From a virus: 62,298 nt of DNA. Where the stretch lies: positions 1 to 62,298 of the IMG/VR virus record IMGVR_UViG_3300012928_000004; one strand, given 5' to 3'. The translations under genes were made by a program, and so were the position numbers. The notes under the pieces are model-generated. The model saw only the letters and a program-made list of their open reading frames with translations. It had not been told where the DNA came from and made no database searches. The first letter of the stretch is position 1, and each line of letters starts with the position of its first letter. This document shows positions 10,456 to 50,000 of this stretch, in pieces.

Positions 10456-10886
10456 TGTCTGATATAAATTCAGCAATTCTAGAAAGACTAGAAAAGGTGG
10501 TAGACTCCTTACAGGAAAACTCTGTAAAGATGGGTCAACTTCTTGCTGTACACAACGAAAAACTGGACAAGCAAGACAAGATTGACCAAGTTTTGTTTGA
10601 GAAAGTAGATAGAATCCATGCTGACTTATCCAGAGAGACGGACGCTATCAAGAGAGGATGCGAGAGAGACATCCGTCTGGTAGATGACAGACTCCGCATG
10701 ATGGAGAAGAAGATGTGGACTATCGCAGGTGCTCTCACTGTGATAACCTTCATGATTAGTGTGCCAGGTCAAGCGTTAATGAGATCCTTGACAGGTGGAG
10801 AAAACCGTAGTATGCTACCTACAGTAGATAGGCTTGCATGGACTACGTTGAGGACAAATACATTAAATTCCTCAGCGCGAGGTTAG
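10455..10886 (+). CDS. Coiled-coil protein with one membrane segment
   Basis: A 143-residue protein. Residues 5-90 form a charged heptad-rich helix (ILERLEKVVDSLQENSVKMGQLL and onward), followed by a hydrophobic segment WTIAGALTVITFMISVPGQAL at about 91-111 and a short polar tail. The layout of cytoplasmic coiled coil plus a single TM is like that of several phage membrane or lysis-associated proteins, but nothing proves such a role. The 3' end overlaps the primase gene by 49 nt. Confidence 0.55.
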   Translation: MSDINSAILERLEKVVDSLQENSVKMGQLLAVHNEKLDKQDKIDQVLFEKVDRIHADLSRETDAIKRGCERDIRLVDDRLRMMEKKMWTIAGALTVITFMISVPGQALMRSLTGGENRSMLPTVDRLAWTTLRTNTLNSSARG

Positions 10887-11827
10887 ATAGATACAAACAC
10901 GTTAAGCGTGGTTTATACAACTTTAGATGCCCCTACTGTGGTGATTCTCAGAAGAATCGCACGAAAGCAAGGGGTTATTTTTTTCTAAAGAAGACAGAAT
11001 ACATTTACAAGTGTCACAACTGTGGTGTTGGTAGGTCCCTAGCAAACTTCTTAAAGGAGCAAGCGGTGGATTTGTATGACCAATTCTTACTTGAAAAGTA
11101 TCAGCAGGGAATGACTGGGAAAGGTCGTCATACACCTGCACCAAAGATTCCGTCATCAAAACCACACTTCAATAAGACAAAAGACTTGCAGCAGATTTCA
11201 AGTCTAAATAATGAGCATCCAGCAAAGCAATATCTACTAGACAGGAAGATACCTGAGGACCAACTCGGTAGATTCTATTACGTTGACAAGTTTAAGAGTT
11301 GGGTTAACACTCGTAAACCCACCTTCGACAATCTGCAAAACGACAGACCTAGAATTATTATCCCATTGATTGATGCGGATGGTAAATGGTTTGGAGTCCA
11401 AGGGAGGTCCATGTCTCCTAAGTCTCCTCTCAGATACATATCAATTATGTTTGAGGATAAACTTAAACTATTTGGACAAGACCAAGTAAACCCAGAGGAG
11501 ACTGTTTATGTCACAGAAGGACCATTCGACAGTACTTTCATTAGACAAGCTGTTGCTATGTGTGGTAGCGATGTTGACCACCGCAGTTTACCTTATAGGT
11601 CTAGGGTCTGGGTCTTCGACAACGAACCTAGGAATAGACAAATCGTGCAGAGACTCGATTCAGCAATCACAAACGGGGAGACCGTGGTTATATGGCCAAA
11701 GACCATAAAGCACAAGGATATCAATGATATGGTCTTGGCAGGACTGAGACCAGATGATATAATTAAAAAGAATACCTACCAAGGGTTAGAAGCACAAATT
11801 AAATTTACCGATTGGAAAAAAGTATGA
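10838..11827 (+). CDS. gp61: DNA primase gp61
   Basis: A 329-residue primase. The N-terminal zinc finger is C31-P-Y-C34 and C59-H-N-C62, separated by a basic loop. A Toprim catalytic core follows, with YVTEGPFDS (Glu227) and the acidic VWVFDNEP segment. It makes RNA primers on the lagging strand together with the gp41 helicase. The length is close to T4 gp61. It ends in an ATGA overlap with nrdA. Confidence 0.92.
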   Translation: MDYVEDKYIKFLSARLDRYKHVKRGLYNFRCPYCGDSQKNRTKARGYFFLKKTEYIYKCHNCGVGRSLANFLKEQAVDLYDQFLLEKYQQGMTGKGRHTPAPKIPSSKPHFNKTKDLQQISSLNNEHPAKQYLLDRKIPEDQLGRFYYVDKFKSWVNTRKPTFDNLQNDRPRIIIPLIDADGKWFGVQGRSMSPKSPLRYISIMFEDKLKLFGQDQVNPEETVYVTEGPFDSTFIRQAVAMCGSDVDHRSLPYRSRVWVFDNEPRNRQIVQRLDSAITNGETVVIWPKTIKHKDINDMVLAGLRPDDIIKKNTYQGLEAQIKFTDWKKV

Positions 11828-45398: not shown

Positions 45399-46157
45399 AT
45401 GGCTGCTAATAATTTCTTAGACTTTAAGGAGTTAGTAACTTCAGGTAAGTATGAACCGTCTCGCTCTAACCTGTTTAGCGTGATGCTTGCTGTGCCACCT
45501 TGCGTTTATTTCAATGATAATAAGTGGCAGGGTAGTGAAGACCGAAGATCTAAGGCAACTAAATCTCATTATGAAGCTATTAACTATCTTGCTAATAGTG
45601 TAACAGTGCCAGGTAGGCGTATCACTACTAGCACAGTTAGAGACATCGGTGCACCACGTAAGTTTGCCACTGATACCGCATTTGGTGACACTCAGATTGA
45701 GTTTATTGTCACTAAAGACATGTATCATAGGTCATTCTTTGAGAATTGGATGCAATATACAGCAACGGACGCTGAGAATCGTGCTGGATTCTATGATGAA
45801 TACACGACCGACTTGATTATAACTAAATGGGAGACAGGTACAAACGTTGTATACAGGCACCCTGCTAATAAATTCAGGGGCGAGCAGTATAGTAGACTCA
45901 ATCGTACTTCTGCTGTATGGTACATGTATGGTGCTTTCCCATATGATATGTCTGAATTGACATTCAATAACGGTCCAACTGAATTAGTTAAATTGAATAT
46001 CTCTTTCCACTTTGAAAGATATAGATTTGACACTATCGGTGGTCAAGGCATCAAATTTGGTGCTAAAAAAGACAAAATCATCGACGATACGTCAGATGTT
46101 CTTGGACACCTTGGATTTGCACCTGCACAGTCAGATGTCTTCCGAGTTGGTGTCTAA
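45399..46157 (+). CDS. gp54: Tail tube/baseplate tube-initiator protein (gp54-like)
   Basis: A 252-residue protein. NLFSVMLAVPP, VTVPGRRITT, FGDTQIEFIVTKDMYHRSFFENW and YPYDMSELTFNNGPTELVKLNISFHFER form the typical tail-tube protein fold. T4 gp54 (320 residues) is the tube paralogue that starts polymerisation on gp48; position and size fit gp54 rather than gp19. Late sites CATAAATA (45246-45253) and CTAAATA (45300-45306) occur in the preceding gene. Confidence 0.72.
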   Translation: MAANNFLDFKELVTSGKYEPSRSNLFSVMLAVPPCVYFNDNKWQGSEDRRSKATKSHYEAINYLANSVTVPGRRITTSTVRDIGAPRKFATDTAFGDTQIEFIVTKDMYHRSFFENWMQYTATDAENRAGFYDEYTTDLIITKWETGTNVVYRHPANKFRGEQYSRLNRTSAVWYMYGAFPYDMSELTFNNGPTELVKLNISFHFERYRFDTIGGQGIKFGAKKDKIIDDTSDVLGHLGFAPAQSDVFRVGV

Positions 46158-46182: not shown

Positions 46183-46887
46183 ATGCCCTTACCTAAGCTC
46201 GCTATCCCCGAGTACGAGATGACCCTGCCTGTAACAGGCACAGAAGTGACTTACCGTCCATTCCTCGTTAAAGAAGAAAAACTGCTCTACCTTGCTATGG
46301 AGTCGAAAGACAACAAGCAAATGATTAAGGCAGTTAAGACCATTATTAAGAATTGCACTAATCTTAAGAGTAAGGTTGAAGACCTTGCAACTTTTGAGAT
46401 TGAGTTTATCTTCCTTCGCATTCGTGCTAAGGCAGTTGGTGAAGTCAGTGAATTTAAGATTACTGCACCAGATGATGATAAGACTACTATTTCTGTAGAG
46501 GTACCTCTGCAAGAGGTAGATGTGCTAATTCCTGAAGGACACGAGAGAAAGATTCAACTTGATAAAGAAGTTGGAGTTGTGATGAAGTATCCATCATTGG
46601 ATGCATTTATCCAACAAAACATGAGTGATAATCCTACAGTTGATGACATCTTTGAGATGGCAGCAGCATGTATTGAGCAAGTTTATGACACTGATGAGGT
46701 GTATGACAATTTCTCACATAAAGAAGCACTTGAGTTTCTTGAGAATTTGAATTCGGACCAATTTGCAAAAGTCCAAGCATTTTTTGAGACAATGCCTAAA
46801 CTCTCTTATACTTTGGAAGTATATAATCCAAAGACTAAGGTAAAGAGTGAAGTTGTCCTTGAAGGGCTTGCAAGTTTTTTCGAGTAG
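46183..46887 (+). CDS. gp26: Baseplate hub/tail assembly protein gp26-like, frameshift donor
   Basis: A 234-residue protein. MPLPKLAIPEYEMTLPVTGT, then VTYRPFLVKEEKLLYLAME matches the T4 gp26 family. Its gene ends gca agt ttt ttc gag tag, in which T TTT TTC (46875-46881) is a classic -1 slippery heptamer. The position between a tube-like gene and tape-measure-like genes is that of the tail assembly chaperones (lambda G/GT type), which use such a frameshift. It would work in tail or hub assembly and be absent from, or minor in, the mature virion. Confidence 0.78.
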   Translation: MPLPKLAIPEYEMTLPVTGTEVTYRPFLVKEEKLLYLAMESKDNKQMIKAVKTIIKNCTNLKSKVEDLATFEIEFIFLRIRAKAVGEVSEFKITAPDDDKTTISVEVPLQEVDVLIPEGHERKIQLDKEVGVVMKYPSLDAFIQQNMSDNPTVDDIFEMAAACIEQVYDTDEVYDNFSHKEALEFLENLNSDQFAKVQAFFETMPKLSYTLEVYNPKTKVKSEVVLEGLASFFE

Positions 46888-46926
46888 CCCTATTGCATGA
46901 TAGTCTTGAAAATTATTACAAGACTA
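46875..46926 (+). promoter_or_regulatory. Probable programmed -1 frameshift site and stem-loop
   Basis: Slippery heptamer T-TTT-TTC at 46875-46881, six bases before the TAG stop of gp26. A perfect 8-bp stem TAGTCTTG (46901-46908) / CAAGACTA (46919-46926) with a 10-nt loop follows, with a 19-nt spacer. The -1 frame is open from 46863 to 47078. Shifting would give a fusion of about 298 residues. Confidence 0.65.
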
Positions 46927-47078
46927 ATTTTGCACTAATGCAACACCATAAGTATTCTCTTACTGAGTTAGACAATATGATACCGTGGGAGCGTGACATT
47001 TACGTGACACTCCTTATCCAATTCATTAAAGAAGAGGAGCAACGGCAACAACAGGACAAAAATCGAATGTCTCTCTAA
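46893..47078 (+). CDS. Downstream reading frame of gp26, probably expressed by -1 frameshift
   Basis: A frame of about 61 residues (HDSLENYYKTNFALMQHHKY, then MIPWERDIYVTLLIQFIKEE) with the WERDIY helix found in tail chaperone T-type extensions. There is no ATG before residue 16 and no ribosome binding site before the only candidate start (TTG 46893), yet the frame is well conserved in style. Production as a -1 extension of gp26 is the simplest explanation. Its stop overlaps the ATG of the tape-measure-like gene by one base. Confidence 0.65.
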   Translation: MHDSLENYYKTNFALMQHHKYSLTELDNMIPWERDIYVTLLIQFIKEEEQRQQQDKNRMSL

Positions 47079-50000
47079 TGGCAGCAACTCTTAAAAAGTT
47101 TGTCAAGATTAAACCGATTGATAGCAAGTCAGCTACTGGCGTTAACTTCAATCAAATCCGTAAAGGTATTAACCGTCAAGGTACCCTTATGGATGGTCTT
47201 AGCGAAAACTTTTTTCAGCAGAAGACTATCTTAGAGTTTCAAAATCAATGGCTTGATACATCCACTTCCAAACAAGTACAAGTTGTAGAGGAAGAAAAGA
47301 AAGAGAAAAAGAAACTATTTTCTGACTTCAAGCAACGTCTAAAACGAATGCTTGGAAAGAAAAAGAGACAGAAAGCTGAGGATGCTGCAGAAGAAGGGGC
47401 GAAAGAAGGAGATAAAGACGGAAAGAAAAGACTAGAAGTAGTTAAGAAACCTATATTTAACTTTTTACAAAGTATAGGTAAGTTGCTTGGCAACATTATT
47501 AAGTATTTTGTTATCTACGGTGCCCTCAGTTGGATGGAGAAGAATCCAGAGGGTATACAGAAGTTAGGTAAACTGCTGTTCGCTTTTGGAAAATTTGCCT
47601 GGTGGTTAGGTAAATGGGCTGTAGGGTCTATACTAGATGGTATTACAAACTTAGTTGGCACATTTGAAGATGAAGGAGCAGTCAAGAGAGGACTGAGATT
47701 CTTCTTAGGTGCATTCCAACTTATTGGAGGTATTGCTGGTCTTAGGGCTGTGCAGTATCTTGTCATGCCTTGGAAAATGCTCAAGGATGCTAAGAGAATC
47801 AACTCAGTATTCCAGCAAACTGCAGAAACAACAGAAGAGCTCAAGGCATCTAAGAAAGCAAGATTTAAGGGGTATAAAGATAAGAAGACTGGCGTCATAT
47901 ACTCTGAGAAAGAATATAAAGAGATGCAGAAAGCATCTAAGAGAGCTGATGCAAGAAGAGCAAAGAATGCAGGTAAAGGATATAAGTCTGACCTAAATCA
48001 AAAAGCATTTAACGAGAGGTTTACAGGACAATACGATAAGGCAAGGAAGGGACCCTTCCAGAAGATGCAACAGCGTGGTCGTATCGCTAAAGGGCGACTA
48101 GGCAGAGGCATGGGTAGCATGGTCAAGAAGTTTCCTGGCGGTGGTGCTGGTCTCTTCAGTGTTGTTGGCGGTGGTATGAGAATTGCCTCTGGACTCGCTA
48201 TGGGTGAAGGAGCTGGTGCTGCTGTTGGTGCTGGTGTAGGTCAAGCAGTAGGTGGTATAGCTGGTGCTGCAGCATTGACTGCAGTAGCACCATTCTTAGG
48301 ACCACTTGCACCTATCATTGGTAGTGCCATTGGTGGTTTCCTAGGTGAGTTTGTAGGTAAGAGCATCGGTCCTATCATCGAACCTATATTTGAGCCTATC
48401 AAGAGATACTTTGGTATGCTCTTTAAGGTAGTCAAAGGAGTATTTGGTCCAATACTTGACCCTATTAAGGAGTTGTTTAGTGCTCTATTTGGGTTTATAG
48501 GAGGATTGGCAAACATCCTTATGGATGTTGGTAAGGTATTACTAGACTTTGGTAAGTTTATATTTGGTCCACTATTCGCTGTTATTGGTGAGACGGTTGG
48601 TTTTGTTGTTAACAACGCCAAACGGTTGATGGACCCTAAGAGTGTTGTTGGTGGTATTGCTGACGCACTTACATTTAACCTGTTTAACTTTGATAAGATG
48701 GCGGCAGGTGGTGTCGTCAAATCACCTGTACCACAGATGGCATCTGGTGGTCCTCTTAATGGTCAAATCTCCATCCTGAGAGAAATTGGTAAGGTTATGT
48801 TAGGTGCCATAGTTGGTGCCATAGGAGCATTTGGACCATTTGGGGGACCTGTATTAAGCTTCCTATCAAGTGATATTTCCAAAGCATCAGCACTATTTGG
48901 TGGTAAATCTGTACCTGGTAGCACTCGACTTGGTAGTGCAAAACCTACTATACCTAATATTCCAGAAAACCAGAAGGTAGAAAAGACTGTTGAGAAGTCA
49001 GTAGTAGCAAAGAGAAAACTTGAAAAGGTATATCGCGAAGACTTCCGTAAGGCATTGATGAATGTCCTTTATTCAATTATCCCTGAGGAGAAAACAAAGA
49101 AAAAGAATAGCAGCTCTTCTAGCAGTAGTAGCAGTAGCAGTGGCGATTCTTCTAGTGCATCAGTAGGCAGTTTCTCTGGTGATGCAAATAGTGGTAGCGT
49201 CCAGAAAAAGGGCGTAGCTATTGCCAAGAATTTCAAGAATGAATTGGGCATTACAAAGGAAGCAGCGGCGGCAATCGCTGGTAACTTTGCACATGAATCA
49301 GCAGGGTTTGTTCCTGGCATTAGAGAAGGTGGACCTTTCGGACAAAACTCAAAACCATGGCCTAAGGGCACAGTTGGTAAGGGATATGGATGGGCACAGT
49401 GGACAAACGCTGCGCCTGGAGATAGATACGATAAGTTTATTAAATCATACGGCGGTAACTACGATAAGATTCCAACAAACGAGGATAACTGGAAGTTTGC
49501 TGTCCAAGAGATGAAGGGTCCTGAGCCATTGGGCTCAGAATTCTCTAGCATGACTGATGTTTCAGCTGCAGCAGTCTGGTTTAGAAAGCATTGGGAGCGT
49601 GCAGGTGTCCACCATGATGGTCCTAGAATAGACTATGCTAAGCAATTCTTGGCACAAATGGCGAAAGGTGGAATCTACAAAGGAGAAGAAAAGAAAAGAG
49701 ATATCGGGACTGTTGAGAAGGAAGTCCACACTAGAAAAAGAAAGGAAGAGCGTGCCGCTGGTGGTAAAATTAAAGCAATATACAGTACTGGACCTACTGG
49801 TGGTGATAATATTAAACATGCTATGGGTAAAATGCATAGTTATGGAGACTTTGCACCACACCATAGGGATCCTGGCGGTGAGAAAGGATATGCTGGTCCT
49901 ATCATTGGATTCCAAAAGGATTATAACTTTAGTAACCAAGCAAGTGGAGACCCATGGCCTTCCTCAGGTATTGACGTAGCAATTCCAACACCACTAGAGG

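Follow-up and report, generated by a model that had tools for sequence, protein, structure and literature searches.

A probable programmed -1 ribosomal frameshift in the tail assembly chaperone gene gp26 of a T4-like marine cyanophage

The window analysed here is a whole stretch of 62,298 nucleotides (IMG/VR record IMGVR_UViG_3300012928_000004, positions 1 to 62,298) from a marine cyanobacterial virus, and the locus of interest lies between genes for a tail-tube-like and a tape-measure-like protein (Table 1). The gp26 gene runs from an ATG at 46183 to a TAG at 46885-46887, and its product matches the Pfam profile PF12322 (T4_baseplate; E=1.1e-66, 225 bits, above the curated cut-off of 24.5 bits) as well as phrog_150 in the PHROG profile search (E=2.1e-74). 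Relatives of gp26 were found by tblastn in 704 phage records, mostly cyanophages. In a VIA-align comparison of the AF2 model of gp26 (pLDDT 89) with 997 chains, the top two were the HK97 tail assembly chaperone (2ob9) and YqbN (3klu), which we take to be an XkdN-type chaperone, both aligning with residues 1-87 at a modest Z of 5.5 (below 8) and an rmsd of 4.0; a PICI protein (5ir0) followed with a Z of 5.0 on a different part of the model, and the remainder reached a Z of 2.7 or less. A Foldseek search of the PDB with the same model gave no significant match (E 0.66), and a PDB sequence search with the gp26 profile found nothing. The modelled fold of the N-terminal domain is suggestive of similarity to tail assembly chaperones.

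Near the end of this short gene, a slippery heptamer of the X XXY YYZ type, T TTT TTC, occupies positions 46875-46881 and is followed by GAG TAG, thus lying 3 bases from the first base of the stop codon and 6 from the last. The first-pass annotation had placed this heptamer in the gp26 frame, six bases from the stop, and both the coordinates and the phase were confirmed. The -1 frame is open from 46863 to 47078, as had been stated, and a slip at the heptamer would give a fusion of exactly 298 aa, which contains the motif WERDIY and agrees with the roughly 298 residues expected beforehand. The same holds for the reported lack of an ATG near the start of this frame and of a ribosome binding site: the first ATG is at 46938 and a TTG is at 46893, none of them preceded by a Shine-Dalgarno sequence. 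The -1 frame matches phrog_634 (baseplate hub assembly catalyst, gp51; E=3.5e-33) and also the C-terminal end of the phrog_150 profile, and its relatives were found by tblastn in 636 phage records, again mostly cyanophages, while a PDB sequence search turned up nothing beyond weak hits, most of them coiled-coil-like segments in proteins of other kinds. A second in-frame TTTTTTT occurs in the window at 10978, within a long open frame (10832-11827) and 840 nt from its stop; this run is probably due to chance.

Table 1. Features of the gp26 locus in the window.
Feature	Position	Strand	Basis or remark
Tail-tube-like protein, directly upstream of gp26	45399..46157	+	phrog_45 tail tube, E=2.9e-41
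gp26, short tail assembly chaperone (TAC-N / gpG-like), 234 aa	46183..46887	+	PF12322, phrog_150, AF2 model
Shine-Dalgarno-like GAAGGG, putative frameshift stimulator, 8 nt upstream of heptamer	46861..46866	+	family-wide anti-SD pairing
Slippery heptamer T TTT TTC, gp26 frame	46875..46881	+	T TTT TTN in 190/190 relatives; none in T4-type gene 26
TAG stop of gp26	46885..46887	+	one codon (GAG) past heptamer
-1 frame extension (TAC-C / T-like; gp51 homologue), read after a predicted slip	46881..47078	+	phrog_634; one-frame alignment with T4 gp51
Predicted junction peptide of TAC-NC: LEGLASFFRVALLHDSLENYYK			
Interrupted 18-bp hairpin, dG -13.2, spacer about 5 nt, includes 8-bp stem	46887..46941	+	folding; family-wide selection
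Large hydrophobic protein, tape-measure-like, 1218 aa	47078..50734	+	tail lysozyme and M23 domains

Relatives were gathered from IMG/VR and GenBank and comprise 190 single-gene (frameshift-type) loci, some of them duplicates of one contig or phage, which were grouped at <60% protein identity into 50 lineages. An alignment had been proposed as a check on the heptamer, and T TTT TTN is present in frame and at the same protein position in every one of the 190 loci and thus in all 50 lineages, usually 0-6 nt and in a few cases 24 nt from the stop. According to their annotation, the carriers belong to Kyanoviridae, Straboviridae (Aeh1, VmeM32), Pootjesviridae, Emdodecavirus and Menderavirus, with Vibrio phage D480 in addition, and cyanophage P-TIM40, the best-scoring record for gp26 (65.5%), has the identical heptamer. 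Under a synonymous-codon null that uses gene-wide codon frequencies and assumes independence, the product probability of the heptamer over the 50 lineages is 10^-22.4, and the other 11,665 codons of the same genes contain no more than 5 in-frame copies of T TTT TT. Loss of the heptamer, which the first-pass annotation had named as contrary evidence, was not seen among the single-gene relatives, except in an Ackermannviridae-like side branch.

The members of this side branch (L215-L232; L053, Klebsiella phage Croc_ER14; L054, Vibrio phage K361), which we take to be Ackermannviridae, have an open and homologous -1 extension without a canonical heptamer, reading GAR ATT TTC ATT TAA in the enterobacterial members and CTT TTC AAG TAA in K361. 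Vibrio phage Bakedbeans (L233), a relative of this branch, retains GAT TTT TTC ATT TAG. Judged by its sequences, the combination of an open -1 extension with a missing heptamer in this branch counts against the frameshift reading.

T4 itself reportedly uses genes 26 and 51, and frameshifting is said to be conserved in several T4-like groups. In T4, Aeromonas 25 and AV108, gene 26 lies on one strand and gene 51 adjoins it on the other, and the same opposite-strand arrangement is present in all 15 T4-type loci from IMG/VR, 14 of which have an intact one-frame gp51. In the T4-type contig L153 the gp51 frame stops after 120 aa and gene 26 looks intact; this break may reflect a broken gene, an insertion or a sequencing error. 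The T4-type gp51 consists of a gp26-like domain and the same C-terminal extension in a single frame. In hhalign searches, whose E-values refer to single comparisons, a profile of 15 predicted fusions aligned with T4-type gp51 over the full length (E=1.2e-20, columns 12-295 versus 5-249), whereas T4-type gp26 aligned with the fusion profile only up to the junction (1.6e-24); T4-type gp26 and gp51 also match each other (8.8e-17). Furthermore, T4 gp51 matches PF12322 as well, so that two copies of this domain are found in each of the three T4-type records (T4, Aeromonas 25, AV108) as against one in each of ten records of other types (8 with the heptamer and 2 Ackermannviridae-like), and one in the window record, which is a fragment. 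In an unrooted tree, T4-type gp26 and T4-type gp51 each form one clade, and both meet the frameshift types at one node. The shape of this tree is consistent with one duplication. The cyanophage-type locus shows the gene in its frameshift form, and T4 has it split and duplicated as genes 26 and 51, a relationship that citing papers credit to Vladimirov et al. (2022).

The surroundings of the heptamer carry two further signals. Upstream, anti-SD pairing scanned in 9-nt windows peaks for windows ending 6-8 nt before the heptamer and is stronger across the family than in synonymous redraws (-6.5 versus -5.0 kcal/mol, z -6.4), and the Glu upstream of the heptamer is encoded by GAG in 19 of 28 cases as compared with 27% elsewhere. 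This Shine-Dalgarno-like element, absent from the first-pass annotation, is under selection and is a putative frameshift stimulator; a dnaX-like role is inferred because the starts available in the second frame are too distant for it to serve initiation. Downstream, the folding energy dips directly after the heptamer, and the 60 nt starting 5 nt past it fold at -10.2 kcal/mol as against -6.4 in synonymous redraws (z -9.4), with z about -2 for two control regions in the same test; the notion that no structure matters here was rejected on this basis. The perfect 8-bp stem-loop described earlier at 46901-46926 is indeed present (TAGTCTTG at 46901-46908 pairing with CAAGACTA at 46919-46926 around a 10-nt loop), but it is not a conserved element, since just 2 of 42 lineages retain all eight pairs. 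The downstream hairpin of S-PM2 is 14 bp long, other lineages have different ones and the median spacer is 11 nt. By these sequence comparisons, downstream structure is selected but the hairpins are lineage-specific, and the 8-bp stem is the version of the lineage to which the window belongs. The reported distance of 19 nt between the heptamer and this stem was reproduced; such a spacer to the strong part of the hairpin is long and counts against the frameshift reading, and it is weak outer pairs that bring the spacer down to about 5 nt.

The neighbouring 1218-aa protein contains Phage_lysozyme2 (7e-20) and M23 (6e-9) domains according to Pfam and gives only weak matches to tape measure PHROGs. 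Its gene begins with an ATG whose A is also the final base of the stop codon in the -1 frame (TAATG, 47076-47080), and no Shine-Dalgarno sequence precedes this start at 47078. In relatives, the next start usually lies no more than 10 nt from the -1 stop, overlaps are common, and the Shine-Dalgarno pairing is weaker on average (-3.4). The overlap without a Shine-Dalgarno sequence suggests that translation of the 1218-aa gene may possibly be coupled to frameshifted ribosomes. A more far-reaching proposal, which we consider rather unlikely, is that throughout the family three dnaX-like elements drive the frameshift, keeping their function while every lineage builds a hairpin of its own, and that the shifted ribosomes go on to translate the tape-measure-like gene, for which a Shine-Dalgarno sequence is often missing; if true, a single slip rate would fix how much of the two chaperone forms and of the tape measure is made relative to one another.

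Taken together, gp26 and the -1 frame very probably form a single gene for a tail assembly chaperone, expressed with the help of a programmed -1 ribosomal frameshift. At the level of sequence, the conservation of the locus, the selection acting on its signals and the homology between the fusion and T4 gp51 are demonstrated. The proposal of the first-pass annotation that gp26 and this frame are the T4-like cyanophage form of G/GT gains strong support from the conserved heptamer, the one-frame gp51 of T4-type phages, the split between one and two PF12322 copies and the fold similarity to the HK97 chaperone. We infer the slip itself, its efficiency and its role in assembly as follows. Most ribosomes would stop at the gp26 TAG and thereby produce TAC-N, the short chaperone of 234 aa. 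In a minority, the tRNAs in the P and A sites would sit on TTT TTC, and these ribosomes would slip back by one base at T TTT TTC, aided by the internal Shine-Dalgarno-like sequence 8 nt upstream and the hairpin just downstream, and would read on to 47078 to yield TAC-NC, of 298 aa. If the analogy with lambda G/GT holds, the tape measure protein would be coated by the short form, while tail tube subunits would be recruited by the C-terminal extension that only the long form has.

A different account of the locus is given by the GenBank annotation of S-PM2, phiN3, D480, phiM9 and AF3, in which gp26 and gp51 are separate genes, and gp51 could be translated separately through termination-reinitiation at a codon after or overlapping the gp26 stop, as an ATG located 2-8 nt past the heptamer end in some lineages would permit. 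The position of the first ATG is, however, not conserved across the 50 lineages (+2 to +95 nt after the heptamer); 28 of them have no ATG until 41-95 nt past the heptamer, that is, inside or beyond conserved residues of the extension, and mean anti-SD pairing before candidate second-frame starts is weak (-1.3 kcal/mol versus -5.7 before the gp26 start). With a first ATG of varying position and such weak pairing, the second frame has no conserved start of its own, and the conserved ATG with a ribosome binding site that had been named as contrary evidence was not found in the relatives. Separate translation also leaves the conservation of the heptamer and the one-frame fusion in T4-type gp51 unexplained, and we regard it as improbable. 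As many relatives carry an ATG just after the gp26 stop, the absence of an ATG is not in itself diagnostic, its value as proof of a frameshift is weakened, and some separate gp51 could be made. None of the GenBank frameshift-type records examined (e.g., L045, L046, L049, L055, L234) joins gp26 and gp51 into one product; the names given to the second frame are gp51, baseplate hub assembly catalyst and hypothetical protein, and its annotated start varies. In hundreds of cyanophage records, gp26 and gp51 are to this day listed as separate genes, and the practical use of the frameshift assignment is therefore a corrected annotation.

The fusion could also arise from an altered mRNA, given that the site is a run of T6-T8, with at least 7 in some lineages, and that a single U inserted by RNA polymerase slippage would restore the same frame and yield an identical protein. 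Most lineages, the window included, nevertheless have six T followed by another base, a run that is short for efficient transcriptional slippage, and stimulators of the ribosomal type are selected both upstream and downstream, which makes this route very improbable. The least credible explanation, in our judgement, is that the heptamer is a by-product of the Phe-Phe at the C-terminus of gp26, nearly invariant in the protein alignment, and that an unrelated gene overlaps gp26 in the second frame. Both the TTT codon and the T before it, which ends the preceding codon, persist whether that preceding codon specifies Asp, Ser (in both codon boxes), Asn or Gly, and phiM9 and AF3 have Phe-Leu at this position, yet keep TTTTTTG. 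Moreover, the heptamer is absent from all eight T4-type gene 26 ends, although Phe-Phe is kept in T4, L144 and L154, encoded as TTC TTT. The peptide does not force the heptamer, since T4-type gene 26, with its similar Gly-Leu-x-Glu-Phe-Phe end, uses GAG TTC TTT.

Frameshifting of the G-T type is conserved in long-tailed phages, with the exception of T4 (Atkins et al., 2016; PMC5009743), and the locus in the window provides the frameshift counterpart of this exception. As in lambda gpG/gpGT, a short chaperone would be accompanied by a low-level -1 fusion, with the C-domain in the -1 frame and upstream of a tape-measure-like gene; there is no detectable sequence similarity to the lambda proteins, however, the slippery site is poly-T where lambda has GGGAAAG, and the extension of about 65 aa is shorter than lambda T. 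Compared with the HK97 chaperone (2ob9) and YqbN (3klu), gp26 has further domains (88-234), and the identity is only 7%. The E. coli dnaX cassette shares with the window an upstream Shine-Dalgarno sequence, a slippery heptamer and a downstream hairpin, but the gene differs, the heptamer of the window is T-rich and not A-rich, and the sequence of the hairpin is not conserved between lineages. In the portions of the literature available to us, no description was found of the upstream Shine-Dalgarno-like element or of selected, lineage-specific hairpins at these loci; the element and the hairpins together form a specific and easily testable cassette. In the tail assembly chaperones of Vandenendeviridae and Andersonviridae (PMC12846349), TAC-N likewise ends in a poly-T motif for a -1 frameshift and precedes the tape measure, but the phage group is a different one and the motif is GTTTTT.

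The closest known system is the TAC-N/TAC-NC pair of T4-like phages (Vladimirov, Gautam and Davidson, 2022; Virology 566:9-15; doi 10.1016/j.virol.2021.11.003). As credited in later papers, that study described slippery signals of the poly-T kind in the TAC-N genes that T4-like phages carry (PMC12846349) and T4-like phages with a short and a fused long gene instead of shifting (PMC10885494). By every indication, this is the same gene pair as in the window, namely the homologues of T4 genes 26 and 51; frameshifting at the T4-like gp26/gp51 locus has thus already been published, and the locus described here adds a member.
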